Assembly (NCBI RefSeq): GCF_021531315.1
Contig: NZ_JAFBIQ010000010.1
Location: 1-64,000 of the forward strand
Length of the DNA stretch: 64,000 bases
Direction: 5' to 3'
DNA from: Oscillibacter valericigenes
GTDB lineage: Bacteria; Bacillota; Clostridia; Oscillospirales; Oscillospiraceae
The notes beneath the pieces are model-generated. The model saw only the letters and a program-made list of their open reading frames with translations. It did no database searches and was not told the DNA's origin. This document shows positions 23,228 to 64,000 of the stretch, in pieces (positions within the stretch are counted from its first letter, which is position 1; each line of letters opens with the position of its first letter). Both the position numbers and the translations under genes were made by a program.

Positions 23228-24739
23228 TTATTCAGCCTTCTCAGCAGCCTTCTTCGTGGTCTTCTTGGCAGCGGGCTTCTTCTCCGCCTCGCCCTCGGCA
23301 GCCTTCTTGGTCGTCTTCTTGGCGGCGGGCTTCTTCTCTTCCTCGCCCTCAGCAGCCTTCTTCGCCGTCTTCTTGGCGGCGGGCTTCTTCTCCGCCTCGC
23401 CCTCGGCGGCCTTCTTGGTCGTCTTCTTGGCGGCGGGCTTCTTCTCTTCCTCACCCTCGGCCTTCTCTGCCTTGGCGCTGTCCACAACAACGGCGACGGC
23501 CTTCTCGTTGAGCAGCTGCTCACGGACGGTGGGCGCGTCGAGGTACTTCTTGAGCATCTCAAGCTCCATGCCGTACTGCTCGGCCATGGACTTGTACTTC
23601 TCCTCGACCTCCTCGTCGGTGACATCAAGGCTCTCAGCCTTGATGATGGCGGCGATGGCAAGATCCATCTTCACCTGGCGGGTGGCGGGCTCCTTGCCGT
23701 CCTCCATGAACTTAGTCTCGTCCATGTTGGTCATCTTGCAATACTGGTCGTAGGGGATGCCCTGCGCCTGCAAGCGCTGCTTGAACTCCTCAAGGAAGCG
23801 GCGGCACTGCTCGTCAATCATGGCGTCGGGAATGTCGGCCTCGATGTCGCCGGCGACCTTCTCGAGAAGGGCGTTTTCAAAGGCGATCTTCACGGACTGC
23901 TCACGCTCGGCCGCGATCTTGGCCTTGATGTCGTCCTTGAGCTCCTTGAGTGTCTCAAACTCGGAAACATCCTTGGCGAACTCGTCATCGAGCGCGGGGA
24001 CCTGCTTTTCCTTGACCTCGTTGACCTTGACATGGAACACGACCTGCTTACCGGCGAGGTCGGGGGCGTAATTCTCGGGGAAGGTGATGTCGATATCCTT
24101 CTCCTCACCGGCCTTCATGCCGATGAGCTGATCCTCAAAGCCGGGGACAAAGCTGCCGGAGCCGATCTCCAGCTCGTGGTTCTCGCCCTTGCCGCCCTCG
24201 AAGGCAACGCCGTTGTCGAAGCCCTCAAAGTCGATGACGGCGGTGTCGCCCTTTTTGACCTTGCGATCCACAGAAACCAGACGGGACTCACGCTCGGCCA
24301 TCTGCTCAAGGCGCTCCTTCACATCGTCAGCCGTGACCTTGACCTCTTCCTTGGGGGCGCTGACGCCCTTGTACTTGCCCAGCTTGACCTCGGGATAGAC
24401 CGCGACGGTCGCCTTAAAGGTGAAACCGTCCTTGCCGATCTGGTCGTCCACGATCTCGACCTCGGGATAGCCGACCACATCAAGGCCGCTGGAGCCGATG
24501 GCCTGTGTATATGCTTCAGGGAGCGCGGCATCCACAGCATCGCTGTAAAAAACGCCCTCACCGTAGAGCTTTTCGATCATCTTGCGGGGCGCCTTGCCGG
24601 GACGGAAACCGGGCACGCTGATCTTATTGCGCATCTTGAGATACGCCTTCTGAACGGCGGCTTCAAACTCCTCGGCGGTCACTTCGACGGTGACGGCGAC
24701 CTGACTCTTTTCGAGCTTTTCGACAGACTTGACATTCAT
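23228..24739 (-). CDS. tig: Trigger factor with a Lys/Ala-rich repeat tail
   Basis: 503 residues; typical trigger factors have about 430. The ribosome-binding N-domain contains the signature PGFRPGKAPRKMI (about 43-55). The FKBP-like prolyl isomerase domain lies near 160-245 (KKGDTAVIDFEGF) and the C-terminal chaperone arms run to about 425. The remaining ~78 residues are four near-identical 18-residue units of the type KKPAAKKTTKKAAEGEAE, strongly basic and like histone H1 tails. The start is ATG 24739 after GGAGGA; longer frames upstream lack a ribosome site. It heads the Clp/Lon region. Confidence 0.93.
   Translation of the reverse strand: MNVKSVEKLEKSQVAVTVEVTAEEFEAAVQKAYLKMRNKISVPGFRPGKAPRKMIEKLYGEGVFYSDAVDAALPEAYTQAIGSSGLDVVGYPEVEIVDDQIGKDGFTFKATVAVYPEVKLGKYKGVSAPKEEVKVTADDVKERLEQMAERESRLVSVDRKVKKGDTAVIDFEGFDNGVAFEGGKGENHELEIGSGSFVPGFEDQLIGMKAGEEKDIDITFPENYAPDLAGKQVVFHVKVNEVKEKQVPALDDEFAKDVSEFETLKELKDDIKAKIAAEREQSVKIAFENALLEKVAGDIEADIPDAMIDEQCRRFLEEFKQRLQAQGIPYDQYCKMTNMDETKFMEDGKEPATRQVKMDLAIAAIIKAESLDVTDEEVEEKYKSMAEQYGMELEMLKKYLDAPTVREQLLNEKAVAVVVDSAKAEKAEGEEEKKPAAKKTTKKAAEGEAEKKPAAKKTAKKAAEGEEEKKPAAKKTTKKAAEGEAEKKPAAKKTTKKAAEKAE
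23231..23443 (-). repeat. Tandem 54-bp repeats encoding the trigger-factor tail
   Basis: Four in-frame units (three of 18 codons, the last of 17) with only T/A and E/A exchanges between them. The near identity at DNA level suggests recent expansion and a potential for copy-number change. Confidence 0.85.
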
Positions 24740-24791
24740 GTTTCTTTTTCCTCCGTAATTAAGCAAATGATGCTCATTGCAAAGTGGTATT

Positions 24792-25529
24792 TTACCATAG
24801 GTTTTCTGAAATTTCCAGCCCTTTTTTATCAATTTTCCTTTCATCGCAGATTTTTTTCGGGGCAAAGTCCAAATAATCCGCGGAAATGAGAGCGTACTCC
24901 GTGTTTCCGCGCCGTCCCTCGAAGGCGCGGCGGTGTGTGGGGCCGTGCAGATGCCCGTAATAGCAGCGCTCGACGCGGTAGCGGTCGATCAGCTCCAGCA
25001 GCTCAGGACATTGGTAGCCCTGATAGAGCGGCGGGTAGTGCAGAAAGCAGAGAATGGGCCTCTCCCCCGCAGCCTTGAACGAGGCTTCCAGCCGCAGCGC
25101 CTCGCGCGCGAGCATCTTGCCTGTGTGCGTACCGGCGGCATCCTCCTCGTAAAACCAGCCGCGCGTGCCGCAGAGGGCATAGTCCCCATAGAAAAAGCAG
25201 TTGTTGAATAAAATATCGATGCTCCCGATGCCATGGGCGTCGAAAAACTTCTTCATCTTTGTGGCGGTGCCCCACCAGTAGTCATGGTTGCCCTTCAAAA
25301 TGAGCTTGCGCCCGGGCAGGGCGTCGATGAACTGAAAGTCGGGGAGCGACTCTTCCAGCGAGATGCCCCACGAGAGGTCGCCCGCGAGCACCGTTATATC
25401 ATCCTGCGTCAAATGGGAGAAGGACTCCCGCAGCCGCTCGACATGGTTCGCCCACCTGTCACCAAAAATATCCATCGGCTTGCTCCCGCCGAGCGAGAGG
25501 TGCAGATCGCCGATCGTATAGAGCGCCAT
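24792..25529 (-). CDS. Metallophosphoesterase (calcineurin-like)
   Basis: 245 residues with all five dimetal phosphoesterase blocks: IGDLHLS (6-12), LAGDLSWG (48-55), LKGNHDYWWG (78-87), a His in FLHYPP (about 163) and GHLHG (about 193). Cytosolic, without signal peptide. It is the last gene of the lepB-ylqF-rnhB-yraN operon, 21 bp after yraN. The substrate (nucleotide, phosphodiester or phosphoprotein) cannot be told from sequence. Confidence 0.88.
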   Translation of the reverse strand: MALYTIGDLHLSLGGSKPMDIFGDRWANHVERLRESFSHLTQDDITVLAGDLSWGISLEESLPDFQFIDALPGRKLILKGNHDYWWGTATKMKKFFDAHGIGSIDILFNNCFFYGDYALCGTRGWFYEEDAAGTHTGKMLAREALRLEASFKAAGERPILCFLHYPPLYQGYQCPELLELIDRYRVERCYYGHLHGPTHRRAFEGRRGNTEYALISADYLDFAPKKICDERKIDKKGLEISENLW

Positions 25530-29758: not shown

Positions 29759-29813
29759 TGGTGCGCCTGAAGGGACTCGAACCCACACGCTGAAAGCACG
29801 AGAACCTAAGGGG
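29759..29813 (-). tRNA. 3' part of a tRNA-Leu gene (fragment, probable attachment-site scar)
   Basis: On the minus strand the sequence reads as the anticodon arm 3' side (with a possible TAG anticodon), a long variable arm, a T-loop with ggttcgagtccc, an acceptor strand and an encoded CCA end (29759-29761), as in class-II leucine tRNA. The 5' half is absent: no sequence complementary to the acceptor strand is found upstream. The T-stem outer pairs are imperfect. A 3' tRNA piece at the edge of foreign DNA is typical of an att site. Confidence 0.7.
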
Positions 29814-29869: not shown

Positions 29870-29908
29870 AAAAAATAAGTCGATGGAATTTTCCTCGACT
29901 TATTTTTT
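29870..29908. terminator. Bidirectional terminator-like hairpin
   Basis: A perfect 14-bp stem aaaaaataagtcga / tcgacttatttttt with a loop of 11. A- and T-tracts on both sides let it work in both directions. No adjacent intact gene uses it now. Confidence 0.7.
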
Positions 29909-29991
29909 CTTTGATCCCAAGTTTACTTGAGCGATACATTTCAATTTGATGTGCAGACTTGATACGGGATATAACATTAAATTAAATTTCA

Positions 29992-30026
29992 GCCATCTGC
30001 CTTTTCATTGGCAGATGGCCGTTTTT
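29992..30026 (+). terminator. Terminator hairpin
   Basis: Stem gccatctgcc/ggcagatggc (29992-30001 with 30010-30019), then cgttttt. It probably belonged to a gene that has since been deleted. Confidence 0.75.
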
Positions 30027-30041
30027 GGGGCTTAACAATTA

Positions 30042-30239
30042 TTGAACATCCCTTACGGTGATAAATACGCCCCGGTGATGATGCTGTTCAGCAAGCGTGA
30101 TGCGGCAAATCTGCTGAACGAGGAAGTGGAAGAACGGTCTGTTCGGGAGTCCATGCGGCAGACGCAGAAAATGCAGCAGGTACAGCAAAAGCGAAAAAAG
30201 CAACGACGGCTGGGAGCGATAATATCTTTTCAAATCCGA
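30042..30239 (+). pseudogene. Truncated reading frame, unidentified
   Basis: A frame including MMLFSKRDAANLLNEE and a Gln/Lys/Arg-rich end (QQVQQKRKKQRR) looks like the basic, helical end of a mobile-element protein. The ribosome site is weak and the frame later runs into unrelated sequence. I do not recognise the family. Confidence 0.3.
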
Positions 30240-30377
30240 AAGCACTTTTGCAGGGCTTTATACTCACCCCTATTTTTGAAATCGGCTGTTTCCACAAGAA
30301 TCCAGCCGGAAGTTTTATACAAACGCTTGTCCGATTTGCGATGCTGTGCTATACTGTTTTCAGCGAGGAGGTGCGTC

Positions 30378-30428
30378 ATGCAGCAAACCGGACGAACGTA
30401 TATCGCCATTGACCTGAAATCTTTCTAG
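30378..30428 (+). pseudogene. First codons of a Y-family DNA polymerase (DinB/UmuC-like) gene
   Basis: ATG after GAGGAGG, then MQQTGRTYIAIDLKSF and TAG. The last ten residues match the start of DinB/UmuC-like proteins common on clostridial conjugative elements, where the next residues are usually YASVE. The stop arises exactly at the deletion junction after the Phe codon. Confidence 0.7.
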
Positions 30429-30510
30429 ACATGGCTGTATTCTACTCTCGACGAGCAAGCGATCTCCTGCTATACTGGTGAAAAAGAAGTAACGCGGGAG
30501 AGCGAATGGA

Positions 30511-30561
30511 ATGAAAAAGATACTCTTTGTGTGTCACGGCATTATTTGCAGAAATCTCTAA
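30511..30561 (+). pseudogene. First codons of a low-molecular-weight phosphatase gene
   Basis: ATG, MKKILFVCHGIICRNL and TAA. The family start is normally KKILFVCxGNxCRSP, the phosphate-binding loop of low-molecular-weight protein-tyrosine phosphatases; here Asn is Ile, and Ser-Pro is lost to the deletion. Only 16 codons remain, so it is non-functional. Confidence 0.7.
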
Positions 30562-30669
30562 GATCCCCTGTAATATCAAGGTTTTTCAGGCTTGAAGGTA
30601 GTGCTACTACACCACTACTACACCAGTGAGTCTCGATGTGACAAAAATTTTGAAATCGAGGTCAAGCTT

Positions 30670-31038
30670 ATGAAAGACAAAAAGAGTATCAACAATATCG
30701 AATACGTATTGGTTGGAGATTACTATATCCCGGATCTGAAGCTGCCCCATGAGGAACGTCCCTTCGGAAAATATGGGCGGATGCACCGAGAATATCCGAA
30801 AGAGCACAATCCAATGATGTTCAATGATTTGGTTCTGGACGGCCAGCTCTGGACTTACCTTGCCGATTTGAACGAGCAGGTACAGGAGCGTTTGTCCCTG
30901 ATTGTTGAGCAGATGAAGGCCGCTGAGGGCGTGACCGAGGAACTGAAAGCAGCAGACCAGATGGCCTGGATTCGAGCCATGAACAGTATCCACAATCGGG
31001 CAGAGGAAATTGTGTTGGAAGAAATCGTATATAGATAA
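30670..31038 (+). CDS. TnpV family protein (transposon-associated)
   Basis: 122 residues. It matches the TnpV family named from clostridial Tn4451-type transposons, with the pattern YYIPDL(x)LP, FGKYGRMH, LKEH-like region, and a C-terminal AADQMAWIRAMNSIHNRAEE block. The function in transposition is unknown. The ATG at 30670 has GAGG upstream and gives the family length; a frame open from 30592 has none. About 50% identical (by eye) to the second tnpV at 33491-33862, which faces it across the Fic genes. Confidence 0.8.
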   Translation: MKDKKSINNIEYVLVGDYYIPDLKLPHEERPFGKYGRMHREYPKEHNPMMFNDLVLDGQLWTYLADLNEQVQERLSLIVEQMKAAEGVTEELKAADQMAWIRAMNSIHNRAEEIVLEEIVYR

Positions 31039-31044
31039 TATCTT

Positions 31045-31078
31045 GCCGGACTTCATTTTCGATGGAGTCCGGCTTTCT
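31045..31078 (+). terminator. Terminator after the first tnpV gene
   Basis: Stem gccggact/agtccggc with a 13-base loop and a short T-rich tail, right after the tnpV stop. It uncouples tnpV from the Fic genes. Confidence 0.65.
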
Positions 31079-31160
31079 ATATCCAGAAGCAGTATTTCCT
31101 GTGTCGGCAAAAAGTGCAACAATTTCGTTTTAAATGCTATTGATATTTTTGCCGATGGCA

Positions 31161-31169
31161 TGGTATACT
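31161..31169 (+). promoter_or_regulatory. Probable extended -10 promoter of the Fic operon
   Basis: TGGTATACT, an extended -10 hexamer, about 53 bp before the first Fic start. It sits inside an imperfect palindrome (catggtatactatg), which could be the operator for an autoregulating HTH-Fic protein. No good -35 is seen. Confidence 0.45.
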
Positions 31170-31222
31170 ATGTAATAGATCAACGTAGTTTTTTGGATAG
31201 ATTTTATGGTGGAGGATCATGG

Positions 31223-32113
31223 ATGCGATATCTTTCAGTTACTGAAATAGCGAAAAAGTGGGATGTGTCAGAGCGCAGTGTTAGAAATTACTGTGCTCAG
31301 GGGCGTGTGAACGGTGCGTTTCTTACCGGCAAGACATGGAACATTCCGGAAAACGCAGAAAAGCCGGAGCGTACCAACAAAAGAAAAGATAAACCGACTA
31401 CTCTGTTGGATATTCTGAAAGAACAGAAGGTAAGTAAATGTTCCGGTGGGATCTACCATAAAACACAGATTGATTTGACATATAATTCCAACCATATGGA
31501 AGGAAGCCGCCTGACGCACGATCAAACCAGATATATCTTTGAAACCAACACCATTGGCTTAGAAAAAGAAGTGCTGAATGTGGATGATGTAATCGAAACA
31601 GCAAATCATTTTCGGTGCATTGATATGATCATTGATCATGCAAAAGCAGCTCTGACGGAGAAGTTCATCAAAGAACTTCACTTGGTTTTGAAGAACGGCA
31701 CCAGTGATTCCAGAAAAGAATGGTTTGCTGTTGGAGATTATAAGAAACTTCCGAATGAAGTCGGCGGCAGAGATACAGCCCTTCCGGAAGAAGTTGCCGA
31801 TAAAATGAAGGCCTTGCTGACGGAATATAGTGCTAAGGAAGAAAAGACCTTTGAAGATATTCTGGACTTCCATGTGAAGTTTGAGCGGATCCATCCGTTC
31901 CAGGACGGCAACGGGCGTGTGGGCAGATTGATCATGTTTAAGGAGTGCCTGAAATACAATATTGTTCCGTTCATCATTGAGGACAATCTGAAGATGTTCT
32001 ATTACCGTGGACTAAAGGAATGGGACAACGAAAAAGGCTATTTGACAGATACCTGCCTGACCGCACAGGACAAGTATAAAGCGTATTTGGATTATTTTAG
32101 GATTGCATATTAA
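31223..32113 (+). CDS. HTH-Fic protein (class II, self-inhibited AMPylator)
   Basis: 296 residues. Residues 1-42 form a MerR-like helix-turn-helix (YLSVTEIAKKWDVSERSVRN). The Fic domain has the full active motif HPFQDGNGRVGR (224-235) with catalytic H224. Upstream, SNHMEG (89-94) fits the (S/T)xxxE(G/N) inhibitory helix in which Glu93 blocks ATP, so this is a class II Fic. Such enzymes usually AMPylate a protein target; the target is unknown. Start ATG 31223 follows GGAGG at 7 bp. First gene of a pair with the next Fic gene, 20 bp apart. Confidence 0.88.
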   Translation: MRYLSVTEIAKKWDVSERSVRNYCAQGRVNGAFLTGKTWNIPENAEKPERTNKRKDKPTTLLDILKEQKVSKCSGGIYHKTQIDLTYNSNHMEGSRLTHDQTRYIFETNTIGLEKEVLNVDDVIETANHFRCIDMIIDHAKAALTEKFIKELHLVLKNGTSDSRKEWFAVGDYKKLPNEVGGRDTALPEEVADKMKALLTEYSAKEEKTFEDILDFHVKFERIHPFQDGNGRVGRLIMFKECLKYNIVPFIIEDNLKMFYYRGLKEWDNEKGYLTDTCLTAQDKYKAYLDYFRIAY

Positions 32114-32133
32114 GCAAAAAGTGAGGTGCAGCT

Positions 32134-33216
32134 ATGTCAGCAGAAAAGAACTGGCAATTTGAACTTGAAGAATATATCAAACAAGGTGAGCCTGGTCAAA
32201 TTGAAAAGAGTGAAGCGTGGCAGACTGCAATTGGCTTGCAGGCGGTAGATGGTTTGAAGACCTCTGCGTATCTGTTAGATACTGCCAAGGAACATATCGA
32301 AGGAAAAATCAATATTGATGAAGCGCAGAAACGTATTCAGAGCTATTACGAGCAACGTACTGATCGTACGGAAGTTGAGAACGATACTAAGGAGGCAGAT
32401 ATTGTATCTGCAAGAATTGCGAAACTATTAGGCGAGAAAGCGTTTCAGTTTTCACCGGCTGAATGGCTGACAATTCACCGCAGATTGTTTGATGGTGTAT
32501 TTTCCCATGCCGGGCAGATTCGTCAGTATAACATTACAAAAAGAGAATGGGTGCTGAAAGGTGATACTGTTACCTACGCAGCGTGGAACAGTATCAAAGA
32601 CACTCTTGATTATGATTTTGCTACGGAGAAACAGTATTCTTATGCAGGCTTGTCTGTAGAACAATGCGTGAAACATCTTGCTAAGTTTGCTTCGGATATT
32701 TGGCAGATTCATCCGTTCTGTGAAGGCAACACCAGAGCAACGGCTGTTTTTATGATCAAATACATGAAGACATTCGGGTTCAAAGTAAACAATGATGCTT
32801 TTGAGAAGAACTCTTGGTATTTCCGCAACGCTTTGGTAAGAGCTAATTATAACGATCTGCAAAATGGTATTCATGCTACAACAAAGTTCTTGGAAATGTT
32901 CTTCAGCAATTTAATTTTGGGAACGGAATATGAGCTGAAAAACAGATATATGCACGTAGATTATGTGGATGATAATTTTCAAAGTGTCATCCCTAAAGTT
33001 CCAAAGTCTCAATTTGACACTTTGGAATGCACTTTAGAAGAACTGGCAGTTTTGAAATTGATTTACAAGAATCCGTCCATTAAGCAAAAAGAGCTTGTGG
33101 CAGAGACAGGAAAATCTCTTAGCACCGTAAAACGAATTATGGAGTCCTTGCAGAAAAAGGATTATATCCGTAGAGTGGACGGAAAGAGATATGGAAAATG
33201 GGAAGTACTGATTTGA
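32134..33216 (+). CDS. Fic-domain protein with C-terminal winged helix
   Basis: 360 residues. The N-terminal ~75 residues hold a conserved helical segment (AWQTAIGLQAVDGL, EHIEGKINIDEAQ) that resembles antitoxin-like leaders of other Fic proteins, but no clear SxxxEG motif. The Fic motif is HPFCEGNTRATA (193-204), a variant with Thr where class II has Gly or Lys. The C-terminus (about 300-355) is a winged helix (AVLKLIYKNPSIKQKELV, LSTVKRIMESLQKKDYI). Start ATG 32134 has GAGG 8 bp upstream. It could AMPylate a host protein and act at DNA, or regulate its own operon. Confidence 0.85.
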   Translation: MSAEKNWQFELEEYIKQGEPGQIEKSEAWQTAIGLQAVDGLKTSAYLLDTAKEHIEGKINIDEAQKRIQSYYEQRTDRTEVENDTKEADIVSARIAKLLGEKAFQFSPAEWLTIHRRLFDGVFSHAGQIRQYNITKREWVLKGDTVTYAAWNSIKDTLDYDFATEKQYSYAGLSVEQCVKHLAKFASDIWQIHPFCEGNTRATAVFMIKYMKTFGFKVNNDAFEKNSWYFRNALVRANYNDLQNGIHATTKFLEMFFSNLILGTEYELKNRYMHVDYVDDNFQSVIPKVPKSQFDTLECTLEELAVLKLIYKNPSIKQKELVAETGKSLSTVKRIMESLQKKDYIRRVDGKRYGKWEVLI

Positions 33217-33265
33217 AAACACCTCAATATGGAGAAAAGATATGACTAACAAACAGTTGAAAAAA

Positions 33266-33470
33266 TTAAAAGATCATGGTGAATCTGTTGTCCAGCTCTG
33301 CCATATTGTTAATGTCCTGATAGAGCTTATCGTTGTCGGTACTATCCAACGAATCATACTCAGACACAAAGATTGGCAGGCCGTTTGACAAATCCTCCAT
33401 TGCCTTTTTCAAGACTGGATTAGAAAGAACAGAAATGATGAATCCCCGGCTGTTGATCCATAAAACAGTG
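33266..33470 (-). pseudogene. Unidentified 3' gene fragment
   Basis: The minus-strand frame ends at a TAA (33266-33268) and reads through WINSRGFIISVLSNPVLKK, a Met-Glu-Asp-Leu stretch, LPIFVSEYDSLD and DINNMAELDNRF. The residue pattern is protein-like, but no start codon with a ribosome site is present, and all frames decay near 33470. I do not recognise the family. The plus-strand ORF 33242-33388 is its antisense shadow. Confidence 0.4.
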
Positions 33471-33490
33471 CAACAGCTGGGGAGTTTTTA

Positions 33491-33862
33491 TCAGCAGTAA
33501 ATCAATTCACTCAACACAATTTCTTCCGCAGCATTACGGATGTTATTCATAGCGCCGACCCATGCCATCTGGTCACGAGCCTTCAATTCTTCATTTATGC
33601 CCTGACGCTCTTGCATTTGCCGGATCAAACGCTCCATTCTCCGGTGTGCGGTATCATCAATCTCGTTCAGATGCGCTACCAGCTTTCCCTCCAGCACAAG
33701 AGTGTTATACAGCACCTTGCGATGCTCCTTCAGATAATGCAGACGCATTCTGCCGTATTTGCCGTAGTGCGGTTCTTCTTCGGGCAGAGAAAGATTGGGA
33801 TAATACATTCCGTCTGCACCCAATGTGTAGGTTCCGCCCAGTTCCTCGAATAGTGACTTCAT
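33491..33862 (-). CDS. TnpV family protein, second copy
   Basis: 123 residues, clearly TnpV (LGGTYTLGADGMYYPNL, YGKYGRMRLHYLKEHRKV, ARDQMAWVGAMNNIRNAAEE). AAGGAGG lies 7 bp before the ATG. It follows the extended rlmD gene by 32 bp in the same direction and points toward the Fic genes. It is too diverged from the first tnpV to be a recent duplication, so the two probably mark two different insertions. Role unknown. Confidence 0.85.
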   Translation of the reverse strand: MKSLFEELGGTYTLGADGMYYPNLSLPEEEPHYGKYGRMRLHYLKEHRKVLYNTLVLEGKLVAHLNEIDDTAHRRMERLIRQMQERQGINEELKARDQMAWVGAMNNIRNAAEEIVLSELIYC

Positions 33863-33894: not shown

Positions 33895-35514
33895 TTAGAT
33901 CATTGCAAAATGTTCAAGAGCAGCCTGGATAGCATCTTCCTTTTCTTTCGGACATTGCGGCACTTTCTGGTTTTCTTTTTGAGAGATATTGTAATGCTCC
34001 CCGACTTCGATGCCGTACTTCCGTTTGACCTGAGAAATATATAAAGTTGAAACCTTTAAGCCAAATTCTTTCAGCACATAATCCTTGATTTCCTGATAGG
34101 TCGCCTTCGACTCGGCAGAGGTAATATCCAGTTCATCCAAGCCCAGGTCGACCTCTATCGTATCATCCGGAGTTTTTCTGGACAAAAGAACTACCGTCTC
34201 CACATGGTCGGCGCGGGGGAAGAGATCGACCGCGCAGGCGCGTTTCGCCTCATAGCCGAGGGCGGCGAAGCGGCCCACGTCACGCGCCATGGTCGCGCTG
34301 TCGCAGGAGACATAGACGACCCGCTCGGGCCGCATGGAGGCGATGCTTTCTATCACGCTTTCCGAAAGCCCCTTGCGCGGGGGATCGACGGTGATGACGT
34401 CGGGGCGCAGATGCTCGCGCGCGAGCTTGGCAGCCACATCGGAGGCGTCGCCGCAGAAAAAATCGACATTGGAAACGCCGTTGCGCGCGGCATTCTCCCG
34501 CGCGTCGGCGATGGCCTCCGGCACGATCTCCGCGCCGAGGACGCGCCGCGCATGGTCCGCGAGCGCGAGCGTGATGGTCCCCGCGCCGCAGTAGAGGTCG
34601 AGCACGGTCTCCTCTCCCGTGAGCCGCGCGAACTCGATGGCCTTGGCGTAGAGCCGCTCGGCCTGCGCATGGTTGACCTGATAGAAGGACGGCACACTCA
34701 GGCGGAAGGACTTGCCGCAGAGCACATCCTCCAGCCGGTCGGCGCCCCAGAGTGTGCGGTAGCGCTCGCCGAGGATCACATTGTCCCGCCGCGTGTTCTC
34801 GCCGAGGACGACGCCCACGGCCTTCGGACAAGCTTCCCGCAGCCGCTCCACCAGCTCTGCCTCGTGCGGCAGCCTTTTGCCGTTCACGAGCAGGCAGATC
34901 AGGCACTCGCCCTTTGTATTCGAGCGGACATAGACGTGGCGCACGAGGCCGCGCCCTGTCCTCTCGTCGTAGCCCGCCACGCGAAAGTCCTGCATATACC
35001 GCCGCACGGCAGCTGCCGCGGCGTCCGCCTCGCTCTTCACCAGCAGGCACGAGACCGTGTCGATGACCTCATGCGTGCGGCCGCGGTAAAAGCCGACCCT
35101 TCCCTCCGGTGAAACAGGGTACTGCGCCTTGTTGCGGTAGCGCAGCGTCTCCTCCGCGCCTAAGATCTCCTCGACCTCGACCGCGCTGCCGCCGATGCGG
35201 ACGAGGTTATCCTGCACGCGCTGCCGCTTCAGCCGCAGTTCCTCGGCGTAGTCCATGTGGCGGTAGGTGCAGCCACCACAGCGCGGGAAATAGGGGCAGT
35301 CCGGCGCGATGCGGTGCGGCGAGGGCGAGAGCACCTCGAGCACCTTGGCAAAGGCGACGGAGCGGAGCACCTTGAGAATGAGAATCCGGCAGACCTCGCC
35401 GCGCAGCGCCCCGGACACAAAGACGACAAAGCCGTCGATGCGGGCGACACCCGCTCCCTCACCCGAATAGCCCTCAACGGTGACGGTATACTCCTGATTT
35501 TTCATGATCGCCAT
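33895..35514 (-). CDS. rlmD: 23S rRNA uracil-C5 methyltransferase RlmD/RumA with foreign C-terminal extension
   Basis: 539 residues; ordinary RlmD proteins have about 450. An N-terminal TRAM domain is followed by iron-sulfur cysteines (CPYFPRCGGC plus a later Cys in TVSCLLV), the SAM site LDLYCGAGTITLAL, DPPRKG, and the nucleophile Cys in YVSCDSATMARD. The core should end at DHVETVVLLSR. The next ~90 residues (DELDITSAESKATYQEIKD... to ALEHFAMI) are AT-rich in codon use and belong to the adjoining island. The start is ATG 35514 with GAGG upstream rather than TTG 35529. The tail's function is unknown. Confidence 0.9.
   Translation of the reverse strand: MAIMKNQEYTVTVEGYSGEGAGVARIDGFVVFVSGALRGEVCRILILKVLRSVAFAKVLEVLSPSPHRIAPDCPYFPRCGGCTYRHMDYAEELRLKRQRVQDNLVRIGGSAVEVEEILGAEETLRYRNKAQYPVSPEGRVGFYRGRTHEVIDTVSCLLVKSEADAAAAAVRRYMQDFRVAGYDERTGRGLVRHVYVRSNTKGECLICLLVNGKRLPHEAELVERLREACPKAVGVVLGENTRRDNVILGERYRTLWGADRLEDVLCGKSFRLSVPSFYQVNHAQAERLYAKAIEFARLTGEETVLDLYCGAGTITLALADHARRVLGAEIVPEAIADARENAARNGVSNVDFFCGDASDVAAKLAREHLRPDVITVDPPRKGLSESVIESIASMRPERVVYVSCDSATMARDVGRFAALGYEAKRACAVDLFPRADHVETVVLLSRKTPDDTIEVDLGLDELDITSAESKATYQEIKDYVLKEFGLKVSTLYISQVKRKYGIEVGEHYNISQKENQKVPQCPKEKEDAIQAALEHFAMI
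34195..34210. other. Island/host junction inside rlmD
   Basis: Around the codons for DHVETVV the composition changes abruptly from GC-rich (above 34200) to AT-rich (below). The 3' end of rum/rlmD genes is a known integration site for several streptococcal mobile elements that recombine at the HVE codons. No att repeat was found within the window. Confidence 0.5.
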
Positions 35515-35530
35515 AGCGTTTTCCCTCAAA

Positions 35531-57960: not shown

Positions 57961-58668
57961 AACTATCTTTCTGCCGCAGAAGCATCTTCTCGAAATGTAG
58001 CGCAGGAAAAAGACAAAATCAAAACCTTGATTGCGGACATCTCCCACCAGACAAAAACGCCGATTGCAAACCTGCTGTTATACAGCGAGCTTCTGATGGA
58101 GGAAACTCTGCCTGCATCGGCGAAGGCAAATGTGGAGGCATTGTACAAACAATCGGAAAAGCTGCGATTTCTGATCGATTCTCTCGTAAAGCTTTCCAGA
58201 CTGGAAAACGGGATCATTTCACTCTCCCCCCAGCCGGCAGCGCTGCAGCCGCTGCTTGAAAGTGTAGTAGAACAATATACCGCCAAGGCTTCTGAAAAAG
58301 GATTGTCTTTGCAAATGCAGGATACAGATGCTTTTGCTGTATTCGACTTCAAATGGACAGCGGAAGCGCTGGCTAATATCGTAGACAACGCCACCAAATA
58401 TACGGAGCATGGCACCATCCGGATTTCTGCCGTAAGTTACGAAATGTTTGCAAGGATCGATATATCGGATACCGGTTCAGGTATTTCGGAAACTGAGCAA
58501 GCGAAGATATTTGCTCGCTTTTACCGCTCAAATAGTGTGCAGAAACAAGAAGGTGTGGGCATCGGCTTATACCTTGCCCGACAGATCATATCCGGCGAGG
58601 GCGGTTATATCAAGGTTGCTTCCGTTCCGGGAAAAGGAAGCACGTTTTCCATATTTCTGCCGAAATAA
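57958..58668 (+). pseudogene. Sensor histidine kinase lacking its sensor domain
   Basis: Homology begins at VNYLSAAEASSRNVAQEK (57958). The HisKA box is IADISHQTKTPIANLLLYSE, the N box is ANIVDNATKYTEHG, G1 is DTGSGIS and G2 is GVGIGLYLAR, ending normally at FLPK. The membrane sensor part and the native start are missing; the open frame only begins at a TTG (57904) without a ribosome site. The kinase type and the ABC ATPase after it are those of antibiotic- or bacteriocin-sensing modules. Confidence 0.8.
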
Positions 58669-58737
58669 CAACAATTCTATCAAAACTGTTAGATTTCATT
58701 TTCCGCCGGAAAGAATGTGGAAAGAATTCTATGCGAT

Positions 58738-58786
58738 AATCTGTATGTATCAAAGGATCATTTCCTTTCATACATACAGATTTTTT
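58738..58786 (+). terminator. Hairpin between the kinase fragment and the ABC gene
   Basis: Stem aatctgtatgtat/atacatacagatt with an inner aagga/tcctt stem and a six-T run. It ends the kinase transcript or acts as an attenuator in front of the ABC gene. Confidence 0.75.
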
Positions 58787-58803
58787 CATGGAGGTACTCA
58801 TTT

Positions 58804-59121
58804 ATGGAGGTTTTACAGGCAAAAGACCTGAGAAAAATTTATGGCTCCGGCAATAACGCAGTTCATGCGTTGGATGGAGTTGATTTAAGTGTAAAGAAGG
58901 GCGAATTTGTTGCAATTGTCGGCACATCCGGCTCCGGCAAATCCACGCTGCTGCACATGCTGGGCGGGCTGGATCGCCCTACAAGCGGCACGGTCATGGT
59001 GGATGGACAGGATATTTTCTCCCTGAAGGAGGAAGCGCTGACCATCTTCCGCCGCAGGAAAATCGGCTTTGTATTTCAGAGCTACAATCTTGTTCCGGTG
59101 CTGAATGTATATGAAAATAAT
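58804..59121 (+). pseudogene. ABC transporter ATP-binding gene truncated by an IS66 fragment
   Basis: The ATG at 58804 follows GGAGG. Walker A is GTSGSGKST (40-48) and the Q-loop is FVFQSYNLVPVLNVYEN, as in MacB/BceA-type ATPases. After about residue 106 the frame leaves the family and ends at 59202. The signature, Walker B and H-loop are missing, so it cannot work. Confidence 0.85.
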
Positions 59122-61434: not shown

Positions 61435-62211
61435 TTATGTCTCTCCCTCCATTCTGTAAGCTCCTTTTCACCGATGGTCACCGTCAGGGACTCGGTCAGA
61501 CACGCCGAGCCTGTGGCGCAGCTTGTTCCATTCGGTGTGCTCCAGCTTTCTGCCGGTGAGCATCGCCATCGTCTCCGCAGCCTCACCGGAGGACATACCG
61601 CTTGGTTCAGCCTGCCAGCGCTGCATCGTTTTTTCCAGCGCAAGCATCCATTCAGTGATGTGCGAGGCGCTCATTCCGTTCAAATCGCATTGGCGGCCGC
61701 CGTATTTCGCGCCTACCTCGTCGATGCGCTGACCGCCGAGACTGGAAGCCTTCTCCGCCGTGGCATGAATGTCATGCGTGTGGCCCATCTGGTTCGTCAC
61801 GCCGGCAGCATCCGACTCCAGCCCCATGAGCATCGCGCCGCAATGCTTGGCGTCTGCAGTCTTGTACATGGAGTAGAAGTGCCCGCATGAGCCGTCGTTG
61901 CACAGCATCCTGCCGCTCACGCCGGCGTTGCCGAGACCGCCAATGGCACAGTTCATACCGCGCTGACCGATAAGGTTGAACGGCAGCTTTTTTTCAAGGA
62001 TCTCGCCGTCCTTCCCGCCGACCTTGCGGCGCTTAATAGAGTGTGTAGAGCTGGCGCGGGCGTTGTCCTGCGCGGGATTTTCGCCGCCTATGGTCAAGAT
62101 CGCCCTCCACATCTCCTGCTGCGCGGCGGCATTGTTTTCGATGTCCTCGATGCCACCCTGCGGCGGGAGCGTCAGCGACACGCGGGAGCAATGGCTCAGC
62201 GCCACGGCCAT
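61431..62211 (-). pseudogene. Frameshifted gene of unrecognised family
   Basis: The frame from ATG 62211 gives 247 residues (QGGIEDIENNAAAQQEMWR, NDGSCGHFYSMYK, GVTNQMGHTHDIHATAEKAS, LEKTMQRWQAE) and ends early at 61468. Another frame continues ESLTVTIGEKELTEWRERHK to a TGA at 61431 that overlaps the GNAT start. Removing one C in 'gaccgag' near 61495 joins them as LGVSDESLTV. The protein is rich in Cys, His and Gly, soluble, and unlike any family I know. ATG 62211 has only a close GAGG. A sequencing error is possible. Confidence 0.6.
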
Positions 62212-62228
62212 AGACCTCTGCCACTTAG

Positions 62229-64000
62229 TTACCTTCGTATTGCATCAACGCTCTGCTGTGCCTCATCACATTCCTCAAGCAGGGCAAGGAAAGCCTCGCA
62301 ATAATGTGCCTGCACATCTACACCATCCTCTGGGAAGGCATATTTCTCAGAATCAGCACAATAGGTCAGTACATCCGGTTCAATTTCCGGCACATTAAGC
62401 CTTAAAAGAATACTATGTTGCAAATACTTATGGGATAGCTTACCACAAGAATCATATGCACGGAGTAGCATAATATATATCTCTTCGGAGCATTTGCCGT
62501 CTGCAATCCATTTGGCTATTATGAGAAGTAAACATTCTGTTTGAAGGTCTGAAAGATTATCCCAAATCGACGGGAGGGCGCTCATTATTTCTGTGAAGCG
62601 GAGCCCTAATAGATAAATAGCAAATATTGCGGTTTCAATTTTTCTTGCATTTTTTGTTTCGATCTGTTCCAGCAAGATATACAAAGCCATTTCAGACAGA
62701 GATTGTGGCAGGGGAAATTCGGAAGGTGACCTCTTAGAATCAAATGCAATATCAATATGCCCATTTCCGCTGATCCAAAGTTCTTGTGTTTGAAGTTCAG
62801 CATTAAACAGCGATTCCATTCCCGCTATATCATCAGTAAATGTCAATTTAAAGAGCAACTGCAAATTGCGGGAGGATGTTTGGTAATCATAATCAGATAA
62901 CTGAGCCTCAATGCACTTTGCGATTTCCCAGAAAGCATCATCTCCCAAAGCGGCTAGCAAGGAATTTATCAACGAATCATATCTCTCGTATGTCCATTCT
63001 TTGCTTTGCAAATACTCACACACGCTCATTAGCACGGATGTTAGGTTTTCTTTGATATTTCTATCATCCGATGACACCTTCTCTAAAATAACTTTGTAGT
63101 GTGCTGCTGGGTTCGCTGATGTTCTAACTGCGGGTAATGCCAATATTGTCTCATCAATTGAGATATCTGCATACTGGGTTTTGATATCCTCAAATTCCTG
63201 TATCCTTTGCGCAGCATAGCTTTTTTCATCCGGGGAAAACTTTTGCTGTTCAGATTGATGGCTGATAATGCTTATCCACTGTGGCGTTAATTCCATTGCA
63301 AATGAAGAAAAATCAACACCGATCTTTTGGGCTTGAGCTACATATGCGTTGAAAATGTTTTGCGCTCCGTTTCGTCCATCTTGCGTATACCAGGAATGAA
63401 TTCCGCAACTAAGAATCCACAGCGCTTCTAAATCAAAGGCAGTAGTTGCGTTGTTAATAAATTCAAAAAGTGAATGGTATATCTAGTCTGGACTTAGCCG
63501 GAAGTCATCACTCCAAGCGCGTAGTTCCCAAAAATCACTCAATCCGCAAGCAACAGCAGCTTTGGATAGTTCATTTTTTATCTCGTAAGAAACATGGTTG
63601 CTCGAATAATCCGCTATTTCAGACTGGCAATATAAATCTGCGCCGAGGTCCTTCCACCTGGCAGGCACAGCTTCAGAAATTATCCTAAAAGAATCTAACG
63701 GCGCATGCATAGCATACTCTTTGTAACCCATATATCCTACGACATCCCACTTGAGCTGAGAGGAAAACTTTTGAATCAATTCGGGATGAACGAGTTCTCC
63801 GTACAGGGAAAACCGCATATGCATCTCCGCTTTGTCCTCAACCATGTTTATATTGCAACAGTTCTCACCATACAAGGTTTCGATGTATTCCCCGATTATA
63901 TCCAACCTATCATGCTGTTTGAAATAGTCCAAGATAGCAGTCTTATAGTACATACCTAAACTATCGATCTCGAACAAGCTTATACGCAATGCGTCTATAA
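62229..64000 (-). pseudogene. Long gene of unrecognised family, split by an in-frame amber codon, 5' end outside the window
   Basis: The frame enters from the right edge (IDALRISLFEIDSLGMYY), runs 168 codons to a TAG at 63483-63485 (FRLSPD-stop), and continues in the same frame without ATG (IYHSLFEFINNATTAFDLEA) to a TAA at 62229. Both parts have the same AT-rich composition and protein-like sequence, so they look like one gene of at least 590 codons. The second part (LLALGDDAFWEIAKCIEAQL, LLLIIAKWIADGKCSEE) is helical, perhaps with HEAT-like repeats. No family recognised. Confidence 0.65.

Follow-up and report, generated by a model that had tools for sequence, protein, structure and literature searches.

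The rlmD locus

The window (the whole stretch of Oscillibacter valericigenes DNA analysed here, 64,000 nucleotides) carries on its minus strand an rlmD gene of composite make-up. The features that concern us are as follows.

33895..35529, minus strand: rlmD chimera, 544 codons; the listed start codon is TTG, and the true start probably lies further in
34198..35511, minus strand: host-derived RlmD core including the catalytic Glu codon, with TRAM and methyltransferase domains
34199..34200, minus strand: most likely strand-exchange dinucleotide GA, with which the catalytic Glu codon GAG begins
34196-34200, minus strand: shared att core GAGAC, as suggested by the seven-genome identity, the pair profile and the L117 and L103 junctions
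33898..34197, minus strand: element-supplied C-terminus, 100 codons, TVVLLSRKTPDD...LEHFAMI
34177..34197, minus strand: first seven element-supplied codons, TVVLLSR, which in the model complete the last beta strand of the methyltransferase fold (strand E438-445; model 1-447 on SpRlmCD 5zq0)
34108..34164, minus strand: predicted flexible linker (pLDDT <50, residues 450-468)
33910..34098, minus strand: predicted three-helix tail domain (model helices 472-483, 489-498 and 522-534)
33491..33862, minus strand: tnpV (PF14198, E 1.3e-43), 33 bp past the tail, the second gene of the same element family
29900..33490, no strand assigned: rest of the AT-rich stretch (GC 0.419), with two Fic genes and a second TnpV on the plus strand, a putative decayed or composite island

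The rlmD frame (ORF 33895-35529) is unbroken across core and tail, and no other RlmD-type gene was matched in its genome apart from three weak matches. The RlmD/RumA profile TIGR00479 scores 393 bits against a cut-off of 183.55 over residues 24-444, stopping at the Glu of HVETVV; PF05958 and the TRAM domain were also matched by profile search. Numbered from window position 35511, C403, which we take to be the catalytic Cys, and E438 are invariant in an alignment of 36 RlmD sequences. The catalytic Glu of RlmD pairs in alignment with E443 of SpRlmCD, whose equivalents are the proposed general base (PMC5614603).

The original prediction described a GC-rich methyltransferase core that runs in frame into an AT-rich tail ending close to tnpV, and this holds: GC is 0.667 over the core (34204-35511) and 0.422 over the tail (33895-34190), within one open frame. 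The boundary had been placed at the end of HVETVV; it appears to lie a little before that, in the GA with which the Glu codon starts (34199-34200). The junction sits at the conserved HVET codons, as expected for serine-integrase elements of the rumA site.

Tail-less relatives and distribution of the tail

The nearest relative (G005) has an RlmD that is 87% identical (86.9%) and ends natively in HVETVALLKRREDDQGPDN and a stop; the nucleotide alignment with the window covers 37211 down to 34193 and breaks off there, in agreement with the earlier proposal that an element has replaced the native rlmD end. RlmD was found in 12 of 17 other genomes of the genus searched, tail-less in 10 of the 12 and tailed in two (G012 and G016), each with a tail type other than the window's; the genus yielded no island-free close relative bearing the same tail in host-like codons.

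Across the order, 394 genomes were sampled and 75 of them contain tail relatives (E up to 0.001), and most, not all, of the stretches around these matches were taken into later comparisons. A species-level genome set holds at least 584 loci with tail relatives; in the best 80 of these, the tail is joined to RlmD in 62 ORFs and to a recombinase in 6, and 17 tails stand alone. The genus g46 carries the tail on 8 of the 19 RlmD found in 20 genomes. Among 122 distinct RlmD-type ends followed by a tail, 118 are in frame and unbroken, and the other four contain a stop (L130, L230) or are out of frame (L186, L205). Besides these four, G032 shows a decayed tail remnant behind its RlmD stop. Shorter RlmD-like proteins at four loci (L072, L076, L096 and L102; 472-507 aa with the tail) are also tailed; classed by eye, they are probably RlmC-type paralogues, and more than one m5U methylase gene may thus be a target.

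Large serine recombinases as the source of the tail

The relatives of the tail are C-terminal domains of large serine recombinases (LSRs). The tail stands directly behind an in-frame VET-type core in 21 recombinase ORFs, and in 36 it is a fixed domain without such a core, 34 of these 36 being followed directly by a second recombinase; the second ORF of L267 was assigned by hand to the class with the core, and many ORFs of either class are close relatives of each other. In two fixed-tail LSRs the Pfam order is resolvase, recombinase and zinc ribbon, with the tail last, and weak matches suggest a coiled coil between zinc ribbon and tail. Viral-contig loci between L251 and L296 contain back-to-back LSR pairs, of which the first has a fixed tail and the second often ends in a VET-type core.

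In the fuller elements an LSR lies 7-19 kb downstream of the RlmD-tail, and its gene encodes the attachment site in the frame of rlmD, reading ..VET[V/C].LLS.. or near it. The bodies of these LSRs are full-length whether they end short or in a tail. Downstream DNA of 8 kb or more was available for 56 RlmD+tail rows; 13 of them have an LSR, always on the same strand and 7.5-17 kb away (eight short-ended, three tailed, two cut by the locus edge), and 43 have no recombinase in the downstream DNA examined; the 56 include two repeats (L219 = L086, L220 = L062), whose recombinase lies further on. The suggested co-occurrence of the tail with tnpV or an integrase therefore stands in part: tnpV lies within 3 kb in 8 of the 56 rows, always 31-33 bp past the tail, but this is one element family, and an integrase accompanies the tail in 13 of the 56.

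That family, with its gap of 31-33 bp between tail and tnpV, comprises Anaerobutyricum hallii DSM 3353, Blautia wexlerae, Coprococcus comes, Butyribacter intestini, Lachnospiraceae CE91-St61, Dorea D27, Clostridium porci and one Lachnospiraceae MAG (L165). A close integrase is present in all seven of these genomes that were searched (all except L165); in five of the seven (A. hallii, B. wexlerae, C. comes, B. intestini and CE91-St61) tail and integrase share a contig, as judged by its length, with the integrase 16-19 kb further downstream, Dorea D27 and C. porci falling outside this count. We also sought circular forms in plasmid, phage and viral-contig records, where related recombinases are present, none of them proof of a circle.

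In all likelihood, then, judging by sequence comparison, RlmD acquired its tail when an element integrated site-specifically and the ends of the two genes were swapped in frame, the tail being the C-terminal domain of the element's large serine recombinase.

Reciprocal exchange and position of the crossover

Two integrases that are 99% alike before the core carry unlike tails (24% in an ungapped comparison); the elements around them are 97% alike over 8.5 kb, and the match stops 12 bases into the site. The reverse product, an integrase that has received a native RlmD end, is seen in G248. Its integrase ends in HVETAARLIREV and a stop, the type of the native RlmD end in its tail-less congeners (HVETAARLVRTGG, HVETAARLVHNGD and HVETAARLIRTDA, each followed by a stop), and the last bases of the gene match the native RlmD end of G173 over 30 bases at 93%. 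The DNA just behind this integrase resembles DNA ∼0.7 kb beyond native rlmD (G426, 89% over 789 bp; G430, 88% over 792 bp). This empty-site check against congeners was successful for this one element, and the ∼0.7 kb behind rlmD differs between the compared genomes. Matching downstream DNA was not found for G292 and G392 in their own congeners, nor for G386 and G260 in those same sets; the integrase end of G392 (HVECVVLMSRV, then a stop) is merely similar in type to the HVEC ends of its congeners. We considered short integrase ends to be host-native in every case and dropped this idea, as such ends are common to distant genera; G248 alone is claimed as a checked site.

The seven genomes with tail and tnpV show the switch from both sides: across the site, the RlmD-side sequences become more alike (identity 0.63 before, 0.95 after) and the integrase-side sequences less so (0.83 before, 0.38 after). 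On the RlmD side one genome of seven differs at the base preceding GA (0.71), and the base following GA is constant; on the integrase side the preceding base is constant, and one genome of seven differs at the following one (0.71). In the pair profile, 99 pairs combine similar tails with dissimilar upstream DNA; in these, identity is 0.57 at the base just ahead of GA and 1.0 at the next four; removal of repeats leaves 94 such pairs among 8778, and the profile omits tails without a recognisable core or with <150 bases upstream. At L117 the codon is GAA on RlmD and GAG on the integrase, which fits a crossover in GA. From this switch of identity in the seven genomes, the pair profile and L117, the crossover most likely falls within GA, the first two bases of the Glu codon, its placing to the single base resting on few differing bases (one genome of seven per side, and L117).

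Elements are stacked on one C. comes contig, which has the order RlmD-tailA, element, integrase-tailB, element, integrase-tailC, and the integrase-borne tail of G237 is found on RlmD in G247 (95.8% over 308 bp).

Short ends were compared among 46 tail-less RlmD ends and 15 integrase ends. Four genomes from two genera share the end IVLLQRETL, then a stop, with an identity of 96% or more over 128 bp: at L155, L157, L158 and L309 this short RlmD end (or nearly this) and the DNA downstream of it are shared, and it is probably another mobile element at the same site. The integrase end of G292 resembles that of B. intestini (85% over 104 bp). Since short ends are common to distant genera, it seems that this site is also used by other, short-ended elements, and RlmD therefore does not need the tail domain.

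The window as a remnant

Tail and tnpV of the window align at 75-87% with related elements elsewhere. No recombinase of this kind was found in the window's genome (search at E 1e-40), the window itself gave no related recombinase match apart from the tail (TnpX was not among the queries), and the displaced native RlmD end was not found in the genome. With neither integrase nor displaced end found in the genome, the island is a remnant, and the tail is probably fixed on this RlmD. Gene order downstream of rlmD differs between the window and G005. As to known element types, the window has the TnpV gene (PF14198) of the Tn4451/TnpX kind, and a TnpX-type large serine recombinase was not detected in it; rumA-site elements typically have at their far end a serine integrase whose gene contains attR, and such an integrase was not found in the window but is present in the related elements.

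Within the AT-rich stretch the second TnpV and the two Fic-domain genes follow one another on the plus strand (30592-33216), and part of the second Fic gene also lies directly behind the integrase in L163. Tn5397 is said to insert in Fic-type genes (PMC4430133). At 29760-29812, minus strand, the window resembles by eye the 3' half of a tRNA gene, with a T-arm motif; ARAGORN found no complete tRNA there, and it is possibly the leftover attachment site of another element. Elsewhere, GC is also low (0.41-0.46) at 58001-59000 and 62001-64000, and an apparent trigger factor (23228-24865; named by eye) has as its C-terminus a run of KKPAAKKTTKKAAEGE-type repeats reminiscent of a histone H1 tail.

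The tail domain

The view that the tail is a structured domain agrees with the prediction of a small helical domain, with a low-confidence stretch (505-514) between the second and third helices; folded alone, the tail again gives three helices at low confidence (pLDDT 62.7). Foldseek gave no match for this structure at E 0.001. The tail profile has no significant match among PDB sequences (best E 0.051, eS24), its resemblance to ribosomal proteins L23 and eS24 being weak and non-significant. This lack of a structural match is no evidence of a new fold; the structure comparison with SpRlmCD 5zq0 concerns the methyltransferase part only (model 1-447).

Among 65 tails there was no convincing Pfam or NCBIfam match, and PHROG 27283, of unknown function, matches 62 of them. 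DUF4368, the C-terminal domain of multi-target recombinases, is absent from the 65 tails at E 0.1 and from six recombinases or pieces of them at E 0.01. No named directionality factor appears among the tails' family matches, and we know of no relation between the tail and the directionality factors of phiC31 and Bxb1.

The tail is under purifying selection, as judged from a median dN/dS of 0.104 and a largest value of 0.41 (459 pairs among 99 distinct RlmD-borne tails of 95-106 residues; pairs at 72-97% identity, dS up to 1.5). With three repeated sites kept, the median is 0.099 (108 RlmD-borne tails, 609 pairs). The sets for the pair profile and for selection draw on 133 tails without repeated sites (136 with them).

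Proposed mechanism and alternatives

Comparison of sequences establishes the tail's origin, its frame, the reciprocal exchange and core, the purifying selection and the domain's membership in recombinases; on this we would build the following model. In it, attP is part of the integrase gene and immediately precedes the final ∼95 codons, with the peptide and frame of the rlmD target (VET[V/C].LLS), and the circular element's integrase would accordingly carry the tail domain. Crossover at the GA of the Glu codon would swap the 3' ends of the rlmD and integrase genes. RlmD would keep its catalytic Glu and gain a new final beta strand, a linker and the recombinase helical domain; it would presumably tolerate this tail and stay active. 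The integrase would receive whatever previously stood behind the site, be it a short end, the tail of another element or the native end of RlmD. A fresh insertion in front would shift the old tail onto the newcomer's integrase and so give tandem arrays. The window has kept tail and tnpV and lost the integrase and the far end.

What the domain does is a separate matter. Gain or loss of it presumably alters the behaviour of the integrase and matters for direction. We regard as possible, though short of probable, a reading in which integration would shift a regulatory, possibly DNA-binding, domain from the recombinase to RlmD and excision would return it, so that the domain make-up of the recombinase reports whether the element is circular or integrated. 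If true, this would be a genetically encoded direction switch that has no separate switch gene, with stacked elements handing domains down the line.

The tail might instead be inert on both proteins, a stop plug that is in frame by chance, the element merely restoring the last strand of RlmD and a stop. The use of the same site by short-ended elements, which implies that RlmD does not need the domain, speaks for this, as do the full-length bodies of short-ended and tailed recombinases alike; purifying selection on the tail, and the 36 recombinase ORFs that keep the domain as a fixed part, make it unlikely.

We give a smaller chance still to the RlmD-borne tail being an excision or directionality factor that acts in trans, its expression in the integrated state being driven by the rlmD promoter of the host. 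A directionality factor fused to the C-terminus of the phiC31 or Bxb1 integrase does promote the reverse reaction (PMC5737554), and tnpV, for which a role in excision has been postulated (PMC3158075), lies directly behind the tail in this element family. Tails of the same kind occur on integrases, however, and a named directionality factor is missing from the tails' family matches.

The original prediction that the tail tunes or hijacks rRNA methylation to the benefit of the element found no support and seems very improbable. The tail is kept intact on the sole RlmD matched in the genome and has its weak, non-significant likeness to L23 and eS24; yet the catalytic core is complete before the tail begins, short-ended elements use the same site, and the tail's homologues are fixed C-terminal domains of serine recombinases. 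Because such homologues are fixed on recombinases and the elements' integrases bear tails too, the tail is first of all a recombinase part. A lineage-specific native extension of RlmD or an assembly artefact, for which we found no supporting point, has practically no chance of being correct and was excluded, as composition and homology break abruptly at one codon, the same junction recurs in many separate assemblies and congeners are tail-less.

The preferred reading, a recombinase domain passed to RlmD at integration, would account for a family of odd RlmD proteins with extra C-termini and would give a precise insertion rule: the codon of the catalytic glutamate, indispensable to the host enzyme. 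It would also offer a natural test system for direction control by large serine recombinases. Caution is due in the use of RlmD phylogenies and annotations, which may mix host cores with mobile tails.

Comparison with known systems

The closest precedents are elements of the same gene. CTn5 of Clostridioides difficile 630delta-erm also lies in rumA/rlmD, and there rumA is fused to an element ORF, CD1844A, to give a hybrid protein; the same C-terminus as in this hybrid was noted on an Enterococcus rumA, and a faint band of intact rumA indicates that excision may occur (PMC4320837). CTn5 differs in that the excerpt of that report neither derives its tail from the integrase nor describes an exchange of the integrase end; we liken CD1844A to our tails by description only. 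The streptococcal rumA ICEs and IMEs are alike in having a single serine integrase, attR in the integrase gene and a reciprocal exchange of 3' ends (PMC4701971, PMC5357655, PMC5704250). In the streptococcal ICEs as described in the available text of PMC4701971, the exchange shifts both reading frames, whereas here the frames are kept and a domain is exchanged; two streptococcal loci in this analysis (L225 and L241) likewise keep the frames and exchange the domain.

Among other serine recombinase elements, Tn4451 has a TnpV-type gene in common with the elements described here, and the target of its TnpX is two bases (PMC3158075); the target sites of Tn5397/TndX have a central GA (PMC4430133), as here. 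Both differ from the present elements in that the excerpts of these papers report neither targeting of rlmD nor swapping of ends, and the window has no recombinase. Phage Mx8 is alike in that attP lies in the integrase gene and integration alters the integrase C-terminus, but its integrase is of the tyrosine type and the new end has just 13 residues (cited in PMC4701971). In the phiC31 and Bxb1 factor fusions a serine integrase changes direction when its C-terminus is extended by a further domain, although these are engineered (PMC5737554).

The RumA-tail hybrid (CTn5) and the reciprocal exchange of rumA and integrase 3' ends (streptococcal ICEs) are thus already in print (PMC4320837, PMC4701971). 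We found no description of an in-frame exchange of this recombinase domain in the open-access literature. What is new here, as read from the sequences, is that the exchanged piece is a recombinase domain and that it is exchanged in frame on both sides.
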